From Dasypus novemcinctus (taxonomy: Eukaryota > Chordata > Mammalia > Cingulata > Dasypodidae): a stretch of 64,000 bases of DNA. How positions within the stretch are numbered: the stretch's first letter is position 1; each line of letters opens with the position of its first letter. The notes under the pieces were generated by a model, which ran no database searches, was not told the DNA's origin, and saw only the letters and a program-made list of their open reading frames with translations. Location: positions 15,352,940-15,416,939 of the forward strand of contig NC_080676.1 of NCBI RefSeq assembly GCF_030445035.2, read 5' to 3'. The position numbers and the translations under genes were made by a program. Positions 1-7,704 of this stretch are shown piece by piece.

Positions 1-233
1 CTATCAAATCCCTCCACGCAGTCCCTAACCCTATAAAGCTGTGTCCCCTTCCGCAATAAACCGGACTTGCGCACAGACCTGGTCTCCGCGGCTTTCTTCC
101 TCCCCTTGCCGTGCGTCCTCTACGCCTGAGAGCCCCTCTGAGGCTGTCTGCCGTAGCCTCAGACGCCACTGCGGTCTAGCCTGACCCTCCAGAACCCCCC
201 GTCAGCGTCGGGGTTAAACAAACCCCAGCCGCA
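1..233 (+). repeat. 5' LTR, partial (U3 end, R, U5)
   Basis: This stretch matches 7155-7388 almost base for base, with about six substitutions and one single-base length change counted by eye. It includes a TATA-like ctataaag at 31-38 and a polyadenylation signal aataaa at 55-60, and ends in CA at 232-233 just before the primer binding site. The upstream part of the LTR lies outside the window. Confidence 0.93.
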
Positions 234-235
234 AC

Positions 236-253
236 TGGCGCCCAACGTGGTAG
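236..253 (+). other. Primer binding site, tRNA-Lys(1,2)-type
   Basis: The first 15 bases, tggcgcccaacgtgg, agree with the 3' end complement of tRNA-Lys1,2, the primer used by simian type-D retroviruses. The last three positions differ. It sits two bases after the LTR end, as expected for minus-strand priming. Confidence 0.85.
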
Positions 254-365: not shown

Positions 366-605
366 ATGGGCGGGCGTCTATCTTCCCGCCAAGCGCCGCA
401 AGTCAGAGCGCTTGCTGGCCTACTAGCCTGTCACCAATGTAAAGTTTCGGGCAGGCAACTCCAGGCTTACTGGGATCTACTGGTCCCCTTCAACCCCTGG
501 CTTTCTACTGCCAATCTCTCGGACCCTGATACCTATCTGAAATTGGCCCCGCCTATCAACAAGGCCAGCCACAAGCCCGAAAATCCACACAAGCTTATAA
601 GGTAA
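366..605 (+). pseudogene. gag: gag matrix (MA) N-terminal fragment
   Basis: The 79-codon open frame begins Met-Gly-Gly, so a glycine at position 2 is available as a myristoylation site, as in retroviral matrix proteins. A segment near residues 27-57 (KVSGRQLQAYWDLL then NPWL) resembles the betaretroviral matrix pattern of a KVS-type turn followed by a CPWF-like motif; here the Cys-Phe positions differ. The frame stops at 603-605, where the composition changes abruptly to AT-rich. Capsid, nucleocapsid and protease are not recognisable downstream. Assignment rests on position after the PBS and splice donor and on this weak motif match. A functional Gag cannot be made from this copy. Confidence 0.7.
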
Positions 606-2905
606 TCAACTCTGTTCCAGCAAACGCCCGCCCACCCTTTTCACAACTCCTCAAGCTCCCTACTATCTACATGACAATGTAGCTCTGGGCTAGTAAAGGC
701 TAATAATAGTTAATCCACTGGTATGAGAGAAAAACATGGCAACATTGGTGTTCTGTTTTATTTCCATGCTAATTCTAATTGGACTTCTTTAACCAAGATA
801 TTAAAATTAGTACAAAAATTTTATCAAGGTTTAAAAAGAAATTTTCAGTTTTAAATCAATAGTTTACTCCTGAACTTCAAGTCTCACTATAGTCTTACAG
901 TAATTATCCAAAAATGTGTGCTAATGGTCTGCCTAACTGCTGCTCGGGTTATTTTAGCTGATTGCTGATAACTGATAGGAATGTTTCCGAGCACAAGCTT
1001 GCATGTTACAGGCAACATGGATTCCAGAGGAAATCTTAATAAGAACTTAAAAGCAGCTATACCAAGAAAGTAAGAATTATGAGTTAATTGTAAACTGTAT
1101 GTTTCTGTTACTGTGTTGTGATTGTTCTGTGTTTGTCTGTTCGTTCAATGTCAGTGTATATTTTGATACCTCCGGATGGTAAATATAAATTAATAAAAAT
1201 TTATAAAAGAGCTCTATACAAATGGCCAAAAATTAAATAAGCGCTTATATTAATACTTAAGTTTATTATATCAATACATGAGCTTAAATGTTAATAAAAT
1301 ATCTACAATAATAGAAATCGTAAGTCTTGATTGACAAGATTAACTGTACGTGTTCATAAAAGGTTGTTCTTGCCCAGATTAAAATGAATAACTTATTTTT
1401 CTTCACAGGATAATATAAAGAATGTAAAGCTTAAATGAATATTAAAAAAGGTTAAAAGTTTGTGAAAATGCTAACTGAAATGTAATAAGTTTTGCAAAAA
1501 GGCGTATTTTGTCCTAAAGTAAAATAGCTAATTTTTCATGAACTCTTGAAACTTAATTTGCAGATGGCAAGCTGTAAAAGGTATTGTGATAACTTTAAGT
1601 AAGGGAATGTGTTCTATAAACATAAAATTTGTCTTCAATAGTCTATATGGTTATAAATAAAAGGTTTAATAAAGCATTGTTTACATTAAAGTATTAAATG
1701 GCTAATTCCAAAAGGTCATTCTTAAATATATATAAAACTGAATTGATGATGATAATAATAAAAGGTAATTTTATAACAGGAAAGATTGGCAGCAACCAGC
1801 CTTCCCTGCCAACTTGCTTCTAGGAAACTGTTTCTAATATTGCATGTTACTAAGTATTTAAAGAAAAGTTCATTATTTTAACAAGCTTGTTTAATGTTCA
1901 CAGTATTGTTATAAGAGGTTTGCTTGATAACTTTGATGTAGGCTATATGGAATGTGTTTTTATTATTAAGGAAACAGAAGATGATTTTGTCCTGAGATAA
2001 AATGATTGATTATTGGAAAGAGTAGAGTGTGGGACAAAACCTGACTGAATACTGAAAGTGCAGAAGGTTGGTGGAAAAGGAATTTTTACAGTTAAAGTTA
2101 AATAAAATTTAATGGGTCTATCTATAAAATTTTACAGGCTTTAGTGTTGGGTAGTATGCTGATGCAAAGTTGAAAATTTTTGTTCTTTCTCAAGGCCTCT
2201 CACCATTAATCTGTTTTAGTAAAAGTTCTTATCCTCAGTCAGTATACAAAGAGAGTCTGTCTTATGTTTCTTGTGCTTATCGTTTCCTCGATGTTCCAAG
2301 AAAGAAAGCTTTATCTCTTAAAGGAACATAACGTTCAAAACTGCTTTCTCAAGACCTAATCCTGAACAGTGGCCTTTTGTTCCAAACTAATTATAAGAGA
2401 TTTGTTCTTTTACCTTGAAAGAAAAATTAAAGTAATAATTAAGTTCATTTAATATGTTATAAGCTAAATAAAGGTGTTTTACAGTGTTATAAAATTAACA
2501 ACTTTTTCTTCCCTTAAACCCTCTATTAATTAAAGTCATATGGATAAAAAGTTTCTATGAATGCTTAAAAGTGTATAAAGTTACCAATATTTCAGCATAA
2601 TATTAAAGAAAAGTACAATATGGTTAATTATAGTTTTAATTATTATAAAAGAGTATATGTCACAAAAACAACCCCTTACCATAGATTAAAGTAACAACAC
2701 TAGTATGCAGCAATCCCAAATACTGCTAGTTTGTTGCAAAAAGTTAAAGTCCAGCTGTATGGCTATCACTTTGTTTTAAAACTTCCTAAGACTTTCTTTA
2801 ATGTCTTCTTGAACAAATCAAGCCAGCTGCATTCCTTTATCTGTAAAGAACCCAACAATAAACTTTTGCAGTGCTTTTCAAGGCTATGTGCATAGCCCAA
2901 CCATC
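606..2905 (+). other. AT-rich noncoding stretch replacing gag-pro-RT
   Basis: About 2.3 kb of strongly AT-rich sequence with no long open frame and no recognisable capsid, protease or reverse-transcriptase motif. It contrasts sharply with the C-rich sequence on either side. Its right end grades into an AT-rich RNase H remnant at 2910, so part of it may be a decayed betaretroviral pol from another element, but most of it I cannot identify. Captured host DNA or a noncoding filler like that of other defective retroelements are alternatives. Confidence 0.6.
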
Positions 2906-2909
2906 TTGT

Positions 2910-3115
2910 ACAGTATTTACTAATAGTAATAGTAATGAAAAAGCAGCATAAAAAAAAAAAAACAGCATGTGTTACTTTCCAAAAAGAACAGGTTTAGCCA
3001 ACTCCTTATTCATCTGCTCAATGCACAGAGCTTTGAGCCATCATTAAAGTTTTACAAATGTTTTAAGAGTCCTTGAATATTGTCTCTGATTCTGAATATG
3101 TATGCCTTACTGATA
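2910..3115 (+). pseudogene. pol: First RNase H remnant (betaretroviral type, AT-rich)
   Basis: From 2910 a frame reads TVFTNSNSNEKAA, which fits the first catalytic-motif region of betaretroviral RNase H with the aspartate position reading Asn. After an A-run, a second frame from 3013 carries the SAQ..EL and AII.VLQMF pattern and then SLNIVSDSEYV, the DSxY motif region, with stop codons at 3034 and 3064. Base composition matches the AT-rich stretch to its left, not the C-rich pol to its right. It is therefore a separate RNase H copy from the one that begins near 3295. Confidence 0.72.
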
Positions 3116-3189
3116 AGCACACCACTGCCCTTTTCTCCGAAAACCCCCGTGCTCAAATTCTTCTAGAAATCTTCCACGGGACCTTTAAC

Positions 3190-4583
3190 TGCCATTACCC
3201 CCCCCCACACAAGTTGCTCCAGGGCCTCACAAGGCTCCCCCTCTCCCCACTATACCACCCTTTCCCTGGCTCCAAGCCTCTCTCCAACTCCACTACTGTC
3301 TTCACGGACGCCTCTAAGACCAAGTTTGCTTATATTGCCTACTCTCCCAGCCGTGACTTGCCAACCATTTACTGCCAAACCCATCCCGGATCGGTTCAGG
3401 TGGGCGAGCTACTAGCCATCCTCACTGCCTTCCAACACCACGGCAATGAGCCCGTCAACATCTTCACTGATAGTCAGTATGCCCTGCAAGTTTGTTCAGT
3501 TATTGCCCACGCTGTTTTCTTTCCACGTGACACGCCCATTGATCAAGCACTCCGTGCCTTGCAGCGAGAGCTCGAGCTCCACACACAGCCATGGTACATT
3601 TCTCATATTCACAGCCATTCAGGGCTACCCGGGCCTCTGCTGCCGACCAAACCGTCTCCACCCATACAATAGCCACTGTTGGAGACTTGGTCAATCAAGC
3701 CAAACTTCTCCATTCTAAGTTCCACTTTTCAGCAGCCTCACTTCAACGTCTTTTGCCGGGCCTCCCCAAGGAAACGTGCAAGCATTTGGTGCGCGCCTGT
3801 AAAACATACGCCCCCTTCTTGCCGCTTGGACCGTTGCAGCCACAAGGGGTCAACCCCCGCGGCCTCAAGCCAAACTCCCAATGGCAAATAGACGTCACCC
3901 ATGTGCCATCATTTGGGCGCCTCAAGTATGTCCATGTCACAGTCGACACCTTTTCTCACCTTTGCTATGCTGTCCCCTTACCGGGAGAAACAGCCAAGCA
4001 TTGCATTAAAGCATTGCGGCAAGCCATCTTATTCATGGGGGTTCCTTGGGATGTTAAAACCAATAATAGGCCTAGGTATCGCAGCTCCTCATTCGCTGCA
4101 TTTCTCCAGCTCTACAACATTACTCACCACTTCGGCATTCCATACAACCCCCAGGGGCAGGCTATAGTAGAATGCATCCACCGCCAGCTCAAAGTGCAAA
4201 TTCAATAAGAGAAGGATCTACGCCCACATAGTCAACCAGGCGACATTATCACTGCCTGCCTCATTCACATAAACCTCCTCTCCTTTGATAAAAACGGTCT
4301 TTCCCCCCTCCATAAGCATTGGGGCCCCTCCTACGCACCAACAGTTGCCCCGATGGTGTTTTGGAAGGACCCAGAAACAAACAATTGGCAGGGACCCAGT
4401 CCCCTTCTCACCCAAGGCAGAGGGTTTGCTTGTGTCTTTCCAGAAAATGCCTCCCAGCCGCTCTGGATCCCCGGGAGAAACGTCAAACCCGCCACCGGCC
4501 AGCAGCAGGTTCCAACGACGGATGATGAGAGCACTCGCCCATCGGATGGAGAGGCTAAATATGGCCGCAGATCTAGCTCATGA
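3190..4583 (+). pseudogene. pol: pol remnant: RNase H plus integrase
   Basis: The RNase H part (about 3295-3671) shows VFTDASKTK, a VGELLAILTA helix, NIFTDSQYA and a final HIHSHSGLPGPL segment. Integrase follows in another frame (about 3660-4208). Its zinc-binding region keeps HSKFH, but the second cysteine of the CxxC pair reads Tyr (ACKTY). The catalytic core has the first Asp (QIDVTH); the second Asp position reads Asn (VKTNN); the Glu is present (GQAIVEC). A third frame at 4353-4583 carries the C-terminal domain with VFWKDPETNNWQGPSPLL and WIPGRNVKP. The core motifs are of betaretrovirus/HERV-K type. The altered catalytic residue and frame breaks make this inactive. It overlaps the env start, as is normal in retroviruses. 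Confidence 0.88.
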
Positions 4584-6511
4584 CACCCTCCTCCTTGGAC
4601 AGCTAGTACAGCTTGCTGTCCGCGCCTTAGCTTCAAACAAAAAACCTAAAAATCTACACTCTCTCCTGCTTTTCATGTTAGCTCTGCTCCCCTCCACTAC
4701 GGACCAGGCTAGTATAAGCCATCGGCCCTTTAACTGGACACTCTCTCTTTGGCAGCAGGAAAAGCTCCTCGCTAATAACATTACTGCGGGTGCTCCCTCC
4801 TTCACAGTGCACATATGTAATCTTGCCAACCTTCCTGTCATCAGTTCCCTTGTAAACGTTACACACAAGACTCACCGGTGTTGATACAGCTCACTTACAG
4901 GCCTTGATGGCCCCTATAATCATGAAGTCTCAGGCTTCTATATTTGTCCTTCCACGGCCAGAGGCTGCTATGACCCAGCGCACTATTACTGCCCCTCCTG
5001 GGGGTGCAAAACCATAGCCCACGGATGGTCGGGAGCTCCCAATAGGGACCCCTACCTCTCCCTTTCTTTTAAGGATAAAAGTCACAGGAGCAGCATTAAG
5101 CCCTACTGGAGCAGCATTACGCTCACTGTCAAAAACCCTAAAAATGCAGGCTGGCTACAGGGCCACACCTGGGGAGCCCGACTTTACATGAGCAACTATG
5201 ATTACGGTGCCTTTTTCATTATAAAGAAAAATTCAATCCGCACACAATCCGCCGCCATGGGCCCAAATCAAGTTCTCAATCCTCCCCACACACGGCCTCC
5301 CCCTCCTCCCTCTGTTTCTCCTTCTCCTCCCGCTACCACCTTAAATCCTTCCATCACTAGGTATCCTCCCCACCGCCAAACCCTGCCACCCCCCAACCCT
5401 CTTGTAGCCCTCCTCAACGCATCATTTATCTCCTTAAACTTATCCCAGCCCAACCTTACACAACGTTGCTGGCTCTGCTTCTCCGCCGCGGCTCCCTTCT
5501 ATGAAGCCATAGCTACCAACAGCGCCTATCGCGCCTCCCCAGACTCCACTGGTACCTCTTGCAATTGGAACCAAACAAAAAGAGGACTCACCCTCTGATC
5601 AGTTTCCCAGACTGGACTCTGTATAATAAAAATCAGCGGCAAAGTTCTCCCCTCCATGCAGTCCCTCTGCAGCCTAACTCACACCCCTAATGCAGCCGCT
5701 AAGTTCCTAATTCCCCCTAATAATACCAAATGGCTATGTTCTTCCTCCAGCCTCACTCCATGTCTCAATGTTCAAACCCTTAACTCCACCAGCGACACCT
5801 GTGTGCTCATACTCATTGCCCCCCCCCCCCCCCCCCCCGCATTCTCTTTTATACTGATAACCAATTCTTTGACTCTTGGCAGCACTTCAGCTCCCCGCAG
5901 CATGAGCAGAAACAGGAAGTCTTCACCGCCATCACAATTGCCACCCTTCTAGGTCTTGCCGGCGCAGCCACTGGAGCTGCAGCTCTCAGCCTCCAAGATA
6001 ATTCCTTTTCAACCCTTAGGCAAGCTGTCGATGCAGACATCGCCCTCCTTGAGACTTCCATGGCCCACCTTGAAACATCTCTCAACTCCCTGTCCGAGGT
6101 CGTTCTCCAAAACCACAGGGGCCTAAACCTCCTCCTCCTAAAAGAGGGGGGCTCTGCGCAGCATTAGGAGAAAAATGCTGCTTCTATGCTAACCACTCTG
6201 GCCTCATTCAAGATAACCTTGCACAAGTTAGGGAGGGCCTCCACAAGAGAAAGCAGGAACGTGAAGCCGAATGGTCTTTCTCTTGGGGGCTGCCCAATGG
6301 AATCCTTTCTTACTTTCTCCCCTTTCTAGGCCTGCTCCTCACCCTTGTCCTCCTATTAGCCCTAGGACTTTGGGTCATCAGGCGAATTGTCCGGCTCGTC
6401 AAAGATCAAATTAACACTGTTCTCAGTAAACCCATTCAAGTCCAGTACCAGCAAATCCACACCACCGAAGAAGAGGCGTCGAGAGTCTCCACCTACCATC
6501 TCCCCCTCTGA
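4522..6511 (+). pseudogene. env: env remnant, gammaretrovirus/type-D class
   Basis: A start codon at 4522 or 4525 opens a frame with a hydrophobic signal-peptide core (LHSLLLFMLALLPS) that stops at 4884. Further surface-subunit pieces follow in shifted frames, including a YYCPSWGCKT segment and, at 5464-5481, RCWLCF, the CxxC motif typical of gamma-type surface subunits. The transmembrane part has a fusion-peptide-like stretch (about 5928-5995), the immunosuppressive-type segment starting LQNHRG (about 6104), a one-base frame break in a G run near 6146-6151, a CX6CC motif in the next frame, a membrane anchor (about 6297-6386) and a short tail ending at 6511. The SU/TM junction has no clear dibasic cleavage site. 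Several breaks rule out a working envelope. Confidence 0.88.
5819..5838 (+). repeat. Poly-C run within env
   Basis: A run of 20 cytosines interrupts the end of the surface-subunit region and is a likely source of a frame break and of length variation between individuals or assemblies. Confidence 0.95.
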
Positions 6512-6653
6512 ATGGCCAGCCGCCCTGCAGCGCGCTCAAGCTCCAAGCCCCTTACCTATGCCCCTTCTCACCGCCCATCCTAACCCCTTACCTTTACCCT
6601 TTCCCCTCCCCCGCCCTGTTTATCTAAGGCCGCCAACATTCCATCGAGGCGCT

Positions 6654-6819
6654 GGACTGGTTAGCCAATGACGGGCAACGGGATCGGCCCGCCAGTCAAC
6701 CTAAGGCAGGAACACGGCCTTTTGCTGCCACGCTTCCCCATGACGGGTAAGACTGGCCACCTGTGTGGCACGGGCATTGCCCGGCTGGGCGCAATCCCGA
6801 CCTAAGACAGGCACAGTCC
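6654..6819 (+). promoter_or_regulatory. CTE-like RNA export element (constitutive transport element)
   Basis: Four conserved blocks appear in the order of the simian type-D CTE: tgacgggcaa (6669-6678), aacctaaggcagg (6698-6710), tgacgggtaa (6741-6750) and acctaagacagg (6800-6811). The linkers pair: cgggat (6679-6684) with atcccg (6794-6799), ccagtc (6692-6697) with gactgg (6751-6756), and an outer ggactg (6654-6659) with cagtcc (6814-6819). This gives one long hairpin with two internal loops related by a 180-degree rotation, the known NXF1/TAP-binding design. It lies between the env stop and the 3' LTR, where the element sits in type-D viruses, and would export unspliced RNA. Structure is seen in the sequence; NXF1 binding is inferred. 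Confidence 0.9.
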
Positions 6820-6864
6820 CCCTCCCTCCTCAAATCAAGCTTTTCGGAGGAGCTTAATAAAAAC

Positions 6865-6875
6865 AAAGGGGGAAA
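6865..6875 (+). other. Polypurine tract
   Basis: The sequence aaagggggaaa ends directly at the TG that starts the 3' LTR, the position of the plus-strand primer of reverse transcription. Confidence 0.88.
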
Positions 6876-7388
6876 TGTGGGAGGAAGGGCGTCCGGCTTG
6901 TCACAGTAGCAAACGGTGCGGCAAGAAGTGATACCGCCTCTGCCCACTGGGCCTAGATAAGGTGACCACGCCTGACTAGGCCTTTGCTGCTAGCGGCTGG
7001 CCGGCGCTGCCCTCCCCCTTTCTATCTCCCGCCTAGCCCAACATCCGGCCAGCTCTCACTCCCCCTTTCCCCTCCCCTATTCCAAACCTCTCAGCCAGCC
7101 CTCTGCCTAGCAACCGCTTACAATCACCTATCAGGAAGCAGTACCCGCCCGCACCTATCAAATCCCTCCACGCAGTCCCTAACCCTATAAAGCTGTGTCC
7201 CCTTCCACAATAAACCGGACTTGCGCACAGACCTGGTCTCCGCGGCTTTCTTCCTCCCCTTGCCGTGCGTCCTCCACTCCTGAGAGCCCCTCTGAGGCTG
7301 TCTGCCGCAGCCTCAGACGCCGCTGCGGTCTAGCCTGATCCCTCCAGACCCCCCCGTCAGCGTCGGGGTTAAACAAACCCCAGCCGCA
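6876..7388 (+). repeat. 3' LTR, complete
   Basis: The LTR is 513 bp and bounded by TG (6876) and CA (7387-7388). The part from 7155 on matches the 5' LTR. A TATA-like ctataaag near 7185 and an aataaa near 7210 mark the U3/R region. Unique host-like sequence follows at 7389. Confidence 0.92.
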
Positions 7389-7704
7389 TTAAAGATTAAT
7401 TGCAATGTGGAATCTAACATGTTATCAATGACTTTTTAGTACTCTATTTACTACATTCCATGCTGTATCTTGCACTTTGCATGGATTTTTTACCAATATA
7501 TGATTTTGTACATGGTACATTGGACATTTACAATATATTGGTTCCTGCATTAAACAAGTTTTCCAAAGATACAGTGGAAACTTCCCCGTACACTAATGAG
7601 AGACTGAGAATGAAAAAAAAGGCAAACAACAACAACAGAAAACAAATACCACAAACTACTTAATATTATTCAAAAATAATTTTGACTTTGTGGAACTTGG
7701 TGTG
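7389..7704. other. Intergenic flank, nothing recognised
   Basis: AT-rich sequence right of the provirus, with no gene or repeat that I can name. Confidence 0.5.

Follow-up and report, generated by a model that had tools for sequence, protein, structure and literature searches.

A probable variant of the type-D constitutive transport element, with two internal loops, in an armadillo endogenous retrovirus

The closest described counterparts of the RNA element reported here are the constitutive transport elements (CTEs) of the type-D retroviruses MPMV and SRV-1, long stem-loops placed 3′ of env with two internal loops set at 180 degrees to each other. According to the available parts of PMC4330390 and PMC4330393, unspliced RNA is exported through the simian CTE by the host machinery, each lobe of the element can bind NXF1-NXT1, and a two-fold NXF1 platform fits both lobes; the latter paper also gives primer sequences for a half-CTE of SRV-1 and identifies AAGACA as the motif conserved in the loops. 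HIV-1 RNA was exported at a low level when a single CTE replaced the RRE, and about as well as with Rev/RRE when four copies did (accessible text of PMC4829213). The same export pathway is said to serve a cellular CTE in an intron of the NXF1 gene (PMC4330390, in part), and Rev-independent export is likewise ascribed to the SERV-K/MER11 CTE, a region of about 1 kb for which the authors report no clear sequence homology in the part of PMC11379458 at hand. The MusD MTE and the IAP RTE are further Rev-independent export elements of endogenous retroviruses. These two are distinct from the CTE, and the NXF1 element lies in intron 10. Response elements of the Rev/Rec type depend on an export protein encoded by the virus. 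No earlier report of an armadillo CTE appeared among the titles and abstract openings listed; Malicorne 2016, reportedly a survey of armadillo env genes, and Zolotukhin 2001 may mention parts of the matter.

The window, by which we mean the whole 64,000-nt stretch of Dasypus novemcinctus DNA that was analyzed, carries a two-loop, CTE-like element of 166 nt at 6654..6819 (+ strand, as are all features below), recognized by sequence, fold, covariation, and a shuffle test. Four blocks stand in CTE order, namely TGACGGGCAA (6669..6678), ACCTAAGGCAGG (6699..6710), TGACGGGTAA (6741..6750), and ACCTAAGACAGG (6800..6811), block 1 lying opposite block 4 to form loop A and block 2 opposite block 3 to form loop B. 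The fourth block brings AAGACA into loop A, and in loop B the second has AAGGCA replacing AAGACA. Three stems of 6 perfect pairs each, found by fold and pair counts, join these loops: an outer stem of GGACTG (6654..6659) with CAGTCC (6814..6819), a mid stem of CGGGAT (6679-6684) with ATCCCG (6794-6799), and an inner stem with the core CCAGTC (6692-6697) and GACTGG (6751-6756), the full strands of which are GCCAGTC (6691..6697) and GACTGGC (6751..6757). Fold and pairing across copies add an extension of the mid stem, GCCC at 6687-6690 with its partner at 6787-6790, so that the two strands of this stem cover 6679..6690 and 6787..6799. An apical hairpin (6711..6740) separates the loop-B blocks, and one or two side hairpins (6758..6786) occupy the 3′ strand between both loops. 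The sequence-only reading had described the four blocks and the three paired linkers; its letters and coordinates proved exact to the base, and all three 6-bp stems are present as it gave them. In this copy 5 of the 39 pairs drawn are unpaired; it has two apical mismatches and a private mismatch at 6711.

Set beside the simian CTE, the element has the two internal loops in rotated order and a closely similar length (166 nt against 150-175 nt in the part of PMC7551171 consulted). By reading, loop B agrees with the SRV-1 half-CTE primer letters printed in the available part of PMC4330393 at 12 of 13 positions on the 5′ strand and 9 of 9 on the 3′ strand, and the five flanking pairs are all changed on both sides. 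Linker bases unlike the simian ones with pairing nonetheless kept, which the sequence-only reading had claimed, are thus seen against the printed half-CTE. Co-folds of the window ends and the SRV-1 half-CTE ends share a five-pair stem, an unpaired A, and four ACCT/GGGT pairs, with slightly different upper parts; the sequence comparison with the simian element covers these printed ends. PMC4330393, as far as seen, has AAGACA in each loop, whereas loop B here has AAGGCA. The internal loops of MPMV are identical in the part of PMC4377836 available, and those of the window differ both in GGGCAA (loop A) against GGGTAA (loop B) and in the A/G exchange, so the element is filed as a CTE variant and not as a full member. 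The apical loop has 8 nt against the simian 9 (same source). Side hairpins branch between the loops, whereas the simian element is described, in the texts as far as available, as a single, continuous long stem-loop without them, which is a further reason for calling the present element a variant. An in-genome yardstick was sought in the host NXF1 gene, where an intron that contains a run of N and for which a human cellular CTE is reported (L101, G000:C12, 5944-6001, + strand) has an AAGACA/AAGGCA pair 48 nt apart; its fold is not clearly CTE-like, and the candidate was set aside.

The surrounding provirus has a 5′ LTR truncated by the start of the window (1..233) and a 3′ LTR at 6876..7388. 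A primer-binding site, TGGCGCCCAACGTGG, presumably of the tRNA-Lys type, lies at 236..250, and a polypurine tract, AAAGGGGGAAA, at 6865..6875, immediately 5′ of the 3′ LTR. TTAAAG stands directly after the 3′ LTR (7389-7394) and directly before the 5′ LTR, upstream of the window. With upstream bases included, an alignment of both LTRs over 512 positions has 10 mismatches and 1 gap, an identity of 97.85%, which corresponds to an age of roughly 4-5 million years if neutral change is taken to proceed at 2.2e-9 per site per year. The pol remnant (3067..4208) comprises an RNase H and an integrase core in separate frames, and both look class II by sequence; the best solved relatives of the integrase are 5cz2, 3jca, and 7usf, which we take to be MMTV, and proteins with ERV-K-like names are among its 88 relatives. 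The env remnant (4885..6511) is of the TLV_coat type, with matches split over three separate open frames; it is therefore broken, in agreement with the wrecked neighboring env of the sequence-only reading. Nearest to its TM piece is Syncytin-2, and 4jf3, presumably MPMV Env, is among the eight matches. A betaretrovirus-like integrase together with a TLV_coat env is the layout of the type-D simian retroviruses, and the position of the element, after env and before the polypurine tract and 3′ LTR, is that of the type-D CTE. The region 600-3066, the expected site of the remaining gag, protease, and reverse transcriptase, is AT-rich, and no retroviral frame was recognized in it among frames of at least 70 aa. 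Within the 3′ LTR, TCAGGAAGCAGTA at 7131-7143 bears a weak likeness to the 17-nt SPRE core of PMC8579622 that needs four deletions.

The pairing of the linkers was compared with 200,000 shuffles in which the blocks were fixed and each linker was shuffled within itself. Shuffled linkers gave a mean of 5.3 and a maximum of 14 of the 18 core Watson-Crick pairs, against 18 of 18 observed; two perfect stems were seen in 1 shuffle, one in 400, and three, the observed number, in none. At the exact boundaries 6654-6819, all three stems appear in the free minimum-energy fold, with pair probabilities of 0.90-1.00, 0.78-0.86, and 0.58-0.74. Folding of 6640-6830 and an Rfam covariance search had been proposed in advance as checks on the CTE reading. 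When these flanks are added, the centroid still keeps the scaffold, but the minimum-energy fold changes and the stability is no better than that of shuffles (z -0.19). Because the flanked stability is unexceptional and the fold depends on the boundaries, fold energy alone is no evidence here. The Rfam search returned 0 matches for the whole window at gathering scores, and the CTE family was absent from a search of 6400-7100 with E up to 10, an outcome that neither supports nor refutes the CTE reading.

A pattern for half of the element has 486 exact matches in the 3.61-Gb genome, against 0 for the reversed pattern and about 0.1 expected with uniform base composition. The window and 88 copies (8 loci and 80 listed places, sampled from the first listed contigs, C1-C5) were aligned with MAFFT in 89 rows; leaving out L083, which misses a half, and L085, which has a differing 3′ part, gave 87 rows, 82 of them distinct. 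The loop-B blocks are part of the search pattern and so conserved by construction, but the stems are not. Pairing holds in 90.4% of cells over 39 pairs and 82 distinct rows, compared with 87.1% in letter shuffles (sd 0.2, maximum 87.6, n = 500), and 16 of the 39 pairs have both-sided variants, a number that falls to 2-8 on sliding the partners by 1-3. Such both-sided change can also come from shared descent, an effect reduced here by a single, midpoint-rooted tree built from flanking sequence only. On this tree of 87 copies, 17 double compensatory events, of which 4 sit on single tips, fall on 14 of the 39 pairs; six slides give 0-2 such events, and 200 random pairings a mean of 1.4 and a maximum of 7. 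The compensatory changes across copies that the sequence-only reading had called for are therefore found, and its proposal of selection on structure is supported by the covariation, with the qualification that selection acted on the replicating lineage and that the window provirus is a decaying copy. The tree also carries 74 pair-breaking branch events, most simply read as decay after insertion, many copies being dead. The loop-A pair drawn at 6676-6800 does not form in any of the 82 distinct rows and is therefore no real pair in this provirus family.

Paired change is displayed most clearly by the mid stem, which across subfamilies reads CGGGATCG/CAATCCCG, CTGAACTG/CAGTTCCG, CTGAACCG/CGGTTCCG, CTGGGCTG/CAGCCCCG, CTGGACTG/CAGTCCCG, or CTTGGCTA/TAGCCTCG. 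Five clades, which we delimited on the flank tree, have supports of 0.82-1.00. All four pairs of the extension 6687-6690/6787-6790 form in 28 of 29 copies in subfamily I, 9 of 9 in II, 24 of 34 in IV, and 11 of 13 in V; subfamily III is without letters at this place. The side hairpins likewise change their letters by subfamily and retain the fold (stems CGGGC/GCCCG in I, GTGAGC/GCTCAC in II, and GGTAAG/CTTACC in IV and V); they are missing in subfamily III and part of IV. As to the loops, AAGACA occurs in both in 54 of 87 copies, AAGGCA takes its place in loop B in 22, and loop A has GGGCAA in nearly all copies against GGGTAA in loop B. Five consecutive two-loop half-matches at G000:C2:20034336-20063805, spaced 7405, 7202, 7405, and 7405 bases apart, are probably a tandem provirus array. 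A collection of viral contigs gave 0 matches to the element in a first scan, and an integrase scan of it found no relatives. Two exact half-element matches in that collection (L001, 4055-4116, and L002, 1706-1767) were rejected as chance, being one 283-aa phage frame, endolysin-like by reading, met twice; they gauge the rarity of chance half-element matches.

A second pattern (a 5′ block with GGGTAA, 8-38 nt, and ACCTAAGACAGG) has 1184 matches in the genome and 0 reversed, a number in which single-loop hairpins are mixed with other two-loop forms. By eye, 54 of 100 listed places look single-loop; reading of 49 loci gave 39 with one loop and 10 with two. These hairpins are well paired: the outer stem in 218 of 234 cells over the 39 hairpins (slides at most 106), the inner GCC step in 114 of 117 (at most 67), and the apical stem of the 29 hairpins with an 18-nt gap in 164 of 174 (at most 109), with several pair types at each apical position. 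Both-sided variants in the outer stem, counted without tree correction, occur in 2 of 6 pairs and are no excess over the slides (0-3). In the 120 nt after the hairpin, 21 of the 39 have a strict polypurine-tract motif, which in 16 of them comes at 21 nt. In their blocks and in having one internal loop between an outer stem and an apical hairpin, these single-loop forms match the SRV-1 halfmer used for NXF1 binding in PMC4330393, in the part seen; that halfmer is a laboratory construct, whereas the hairpins here are natural and lie in proviruses, 11 of 26 checked having a GP41-type env. Four of the 39 (L108, L117, L122, and L129) have a second single-loop hairpin in tandem under a loose pattern, and L113 and L130 look tandem-like by eye. 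Tandem single loops have the block order 5′,3′,5′,3′. Two-loop elements show it too, and re-pairing within a tandem could thus yield the nested form.

For 26 loci with one loop and 30 with two, chosen non-randomly from listed places, the upstream regions were compared with six env reference pieces and one integrase piece checked by Pfam. The single-loop loci had a GP41-type env in 11 cases, an env unrecognized by Pfam in 6, a TLV_coat env in 5, an integrase only in 1, and nothing in 3, and the two-loop loci a TLV_coat env in 21, an integrase only in 7, a GP41-type env in 1 (L183), and nothing in 1. GP41 against TLV_coat differs by hairpin architecture with a Fisher p of 4e-5, although related copies are not independent. 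The CTE-type hairpin thus occurs with at least three env types in one host, and the picture of one element beside one wrecked env, from which the analysis set out, is too narrow, several env types having single- and double-loop forms. Since these hairpins stand beside GP41-type, unclassified, TLV_coat, or no found env, the export hairpin need not be tied to one env. L183, the place of L085, is a provirus with a GP41-type env, a two-loop element, and an LTR start also met with single-loop elements, which suggests recombination between lineages. The third env type lies beside the single-loop elements of L107, L156, L160, L162, L163, and L170; Pfam recognized no env family in two env pieces of L107, which the other five match. 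At L005, L110, L112, L187, L188, L191, and L192, the two-loop element lies about 480-830 bases 3′ of integrase and no env was found with the reference pieces; these are possibly env-less lineages.

We read 6654-6819 as a type-D-like CTE hairpin with two loops that was kept by compensatory change across its provirus family and likely recruited NXF1-NXT1 directly for the export of unspliced RNA, a reading to which we give a probability of roughly 0.87. Each internal loop would bind one NXF1-NXT1 dimer, both would jointly engage the symmetric NXF1 platform described in the part of PMC4330390 available, and unspliced gag-pol RNA would thereby have left the nucleus without a viral Rev-like protein, selection having acted while the lineage replicated; recruitment of host NXF1 is predicted for single- and two-loop forms alike. 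The unexceptional stability against shuffles is what might be expected of chance or a repeat artefact, an explanation we regard as practically negligible given that 0 of 200,000 linker shuffles equal the observed pairing and that the half-element pattern has hundreds of copies and its reverse none. Alternatively, the hairpin could be a viral RNA structure under selection for a different main role, such as packaging, stability, translation, or 3′-end processing, with a partial CTE likeness: covariation reveals structure and not ligand, and a position just 5′ of the polypurine tract and LTR is home to other 3′ signals. The match to the SRV-1 half-CTE, however, extends beyond the stems to unpaired loop letters, which a generic structure would lose, and we consider another main job improbable. 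The strongest competitor, falling somewhat short of even odds, is a relic by descent, the CTE of the family having once worked and the window copy having lost folding or binding. The split env, the divergence of the LTRs, the mismatches at 6711 and in the apical part, and AAGGCA in loop B all fit such a relic. On the other hand, the three core stems are perfect, loop A has AAGACA, and AAGGCA is common to 20 of the 29 copies of subfamily I, to which the window belongs, and is therefore no private lesion of this copy. Whether this fossil copy is active at present is close to an even bet.

For the origin of the element, the block order and the env distribution suggest, from sequence comparison, that the two-loop CTE may have arisen by duplication of one hairpin, independently of the TLV_coat env. 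The nested form would have come from tandem duplication of a single-loop hairpin still carried by related proviruses, and the effect of copy number described in the accessible part of PMC4829213 makes a doubling of the single loop a plausible gain. More tentatively, and as a proposal that we think less likely than not, this genome may preserve successive stages in the build-up of the two-fold-symmetric CTE, from a single NXF1-binding hairpin in betaretroviruses with a GP41-type env through a tandem to the nested two-loop form, made by re-pairing of unchanged linear blocks and spread with swaps to a TLV_coat env. The opposite course, in which two loops came first and deletion produced the single-loop hairpins, with no duplication route, has on its side that the simian viruses are known with two-loop elements (PMC4330390 and PMC4377836, in the parts seen) and that parts are missing from some of the present copies (L083, L058). 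We nevertheless find it doubtful: the single loops have a well-paired apical stem of their own with several pair types, adjoin other envs at 17 of 26 loci, and in tandem retain the 5′,3′,5′,3′ order.

The available part of PMC3621094 asks whether the type-D CTE predated the gammaretroviral env or came with it, and the variety of env beside the armadillo hairpins bears on this question. If the staged build-up is true, the export signal would predate and outlive the adjoining env gene. The hundreds of natural one-loop, tandem, and two-loop copies form a panel for asking how many NXF1 sites are needed and which loop letters matter.
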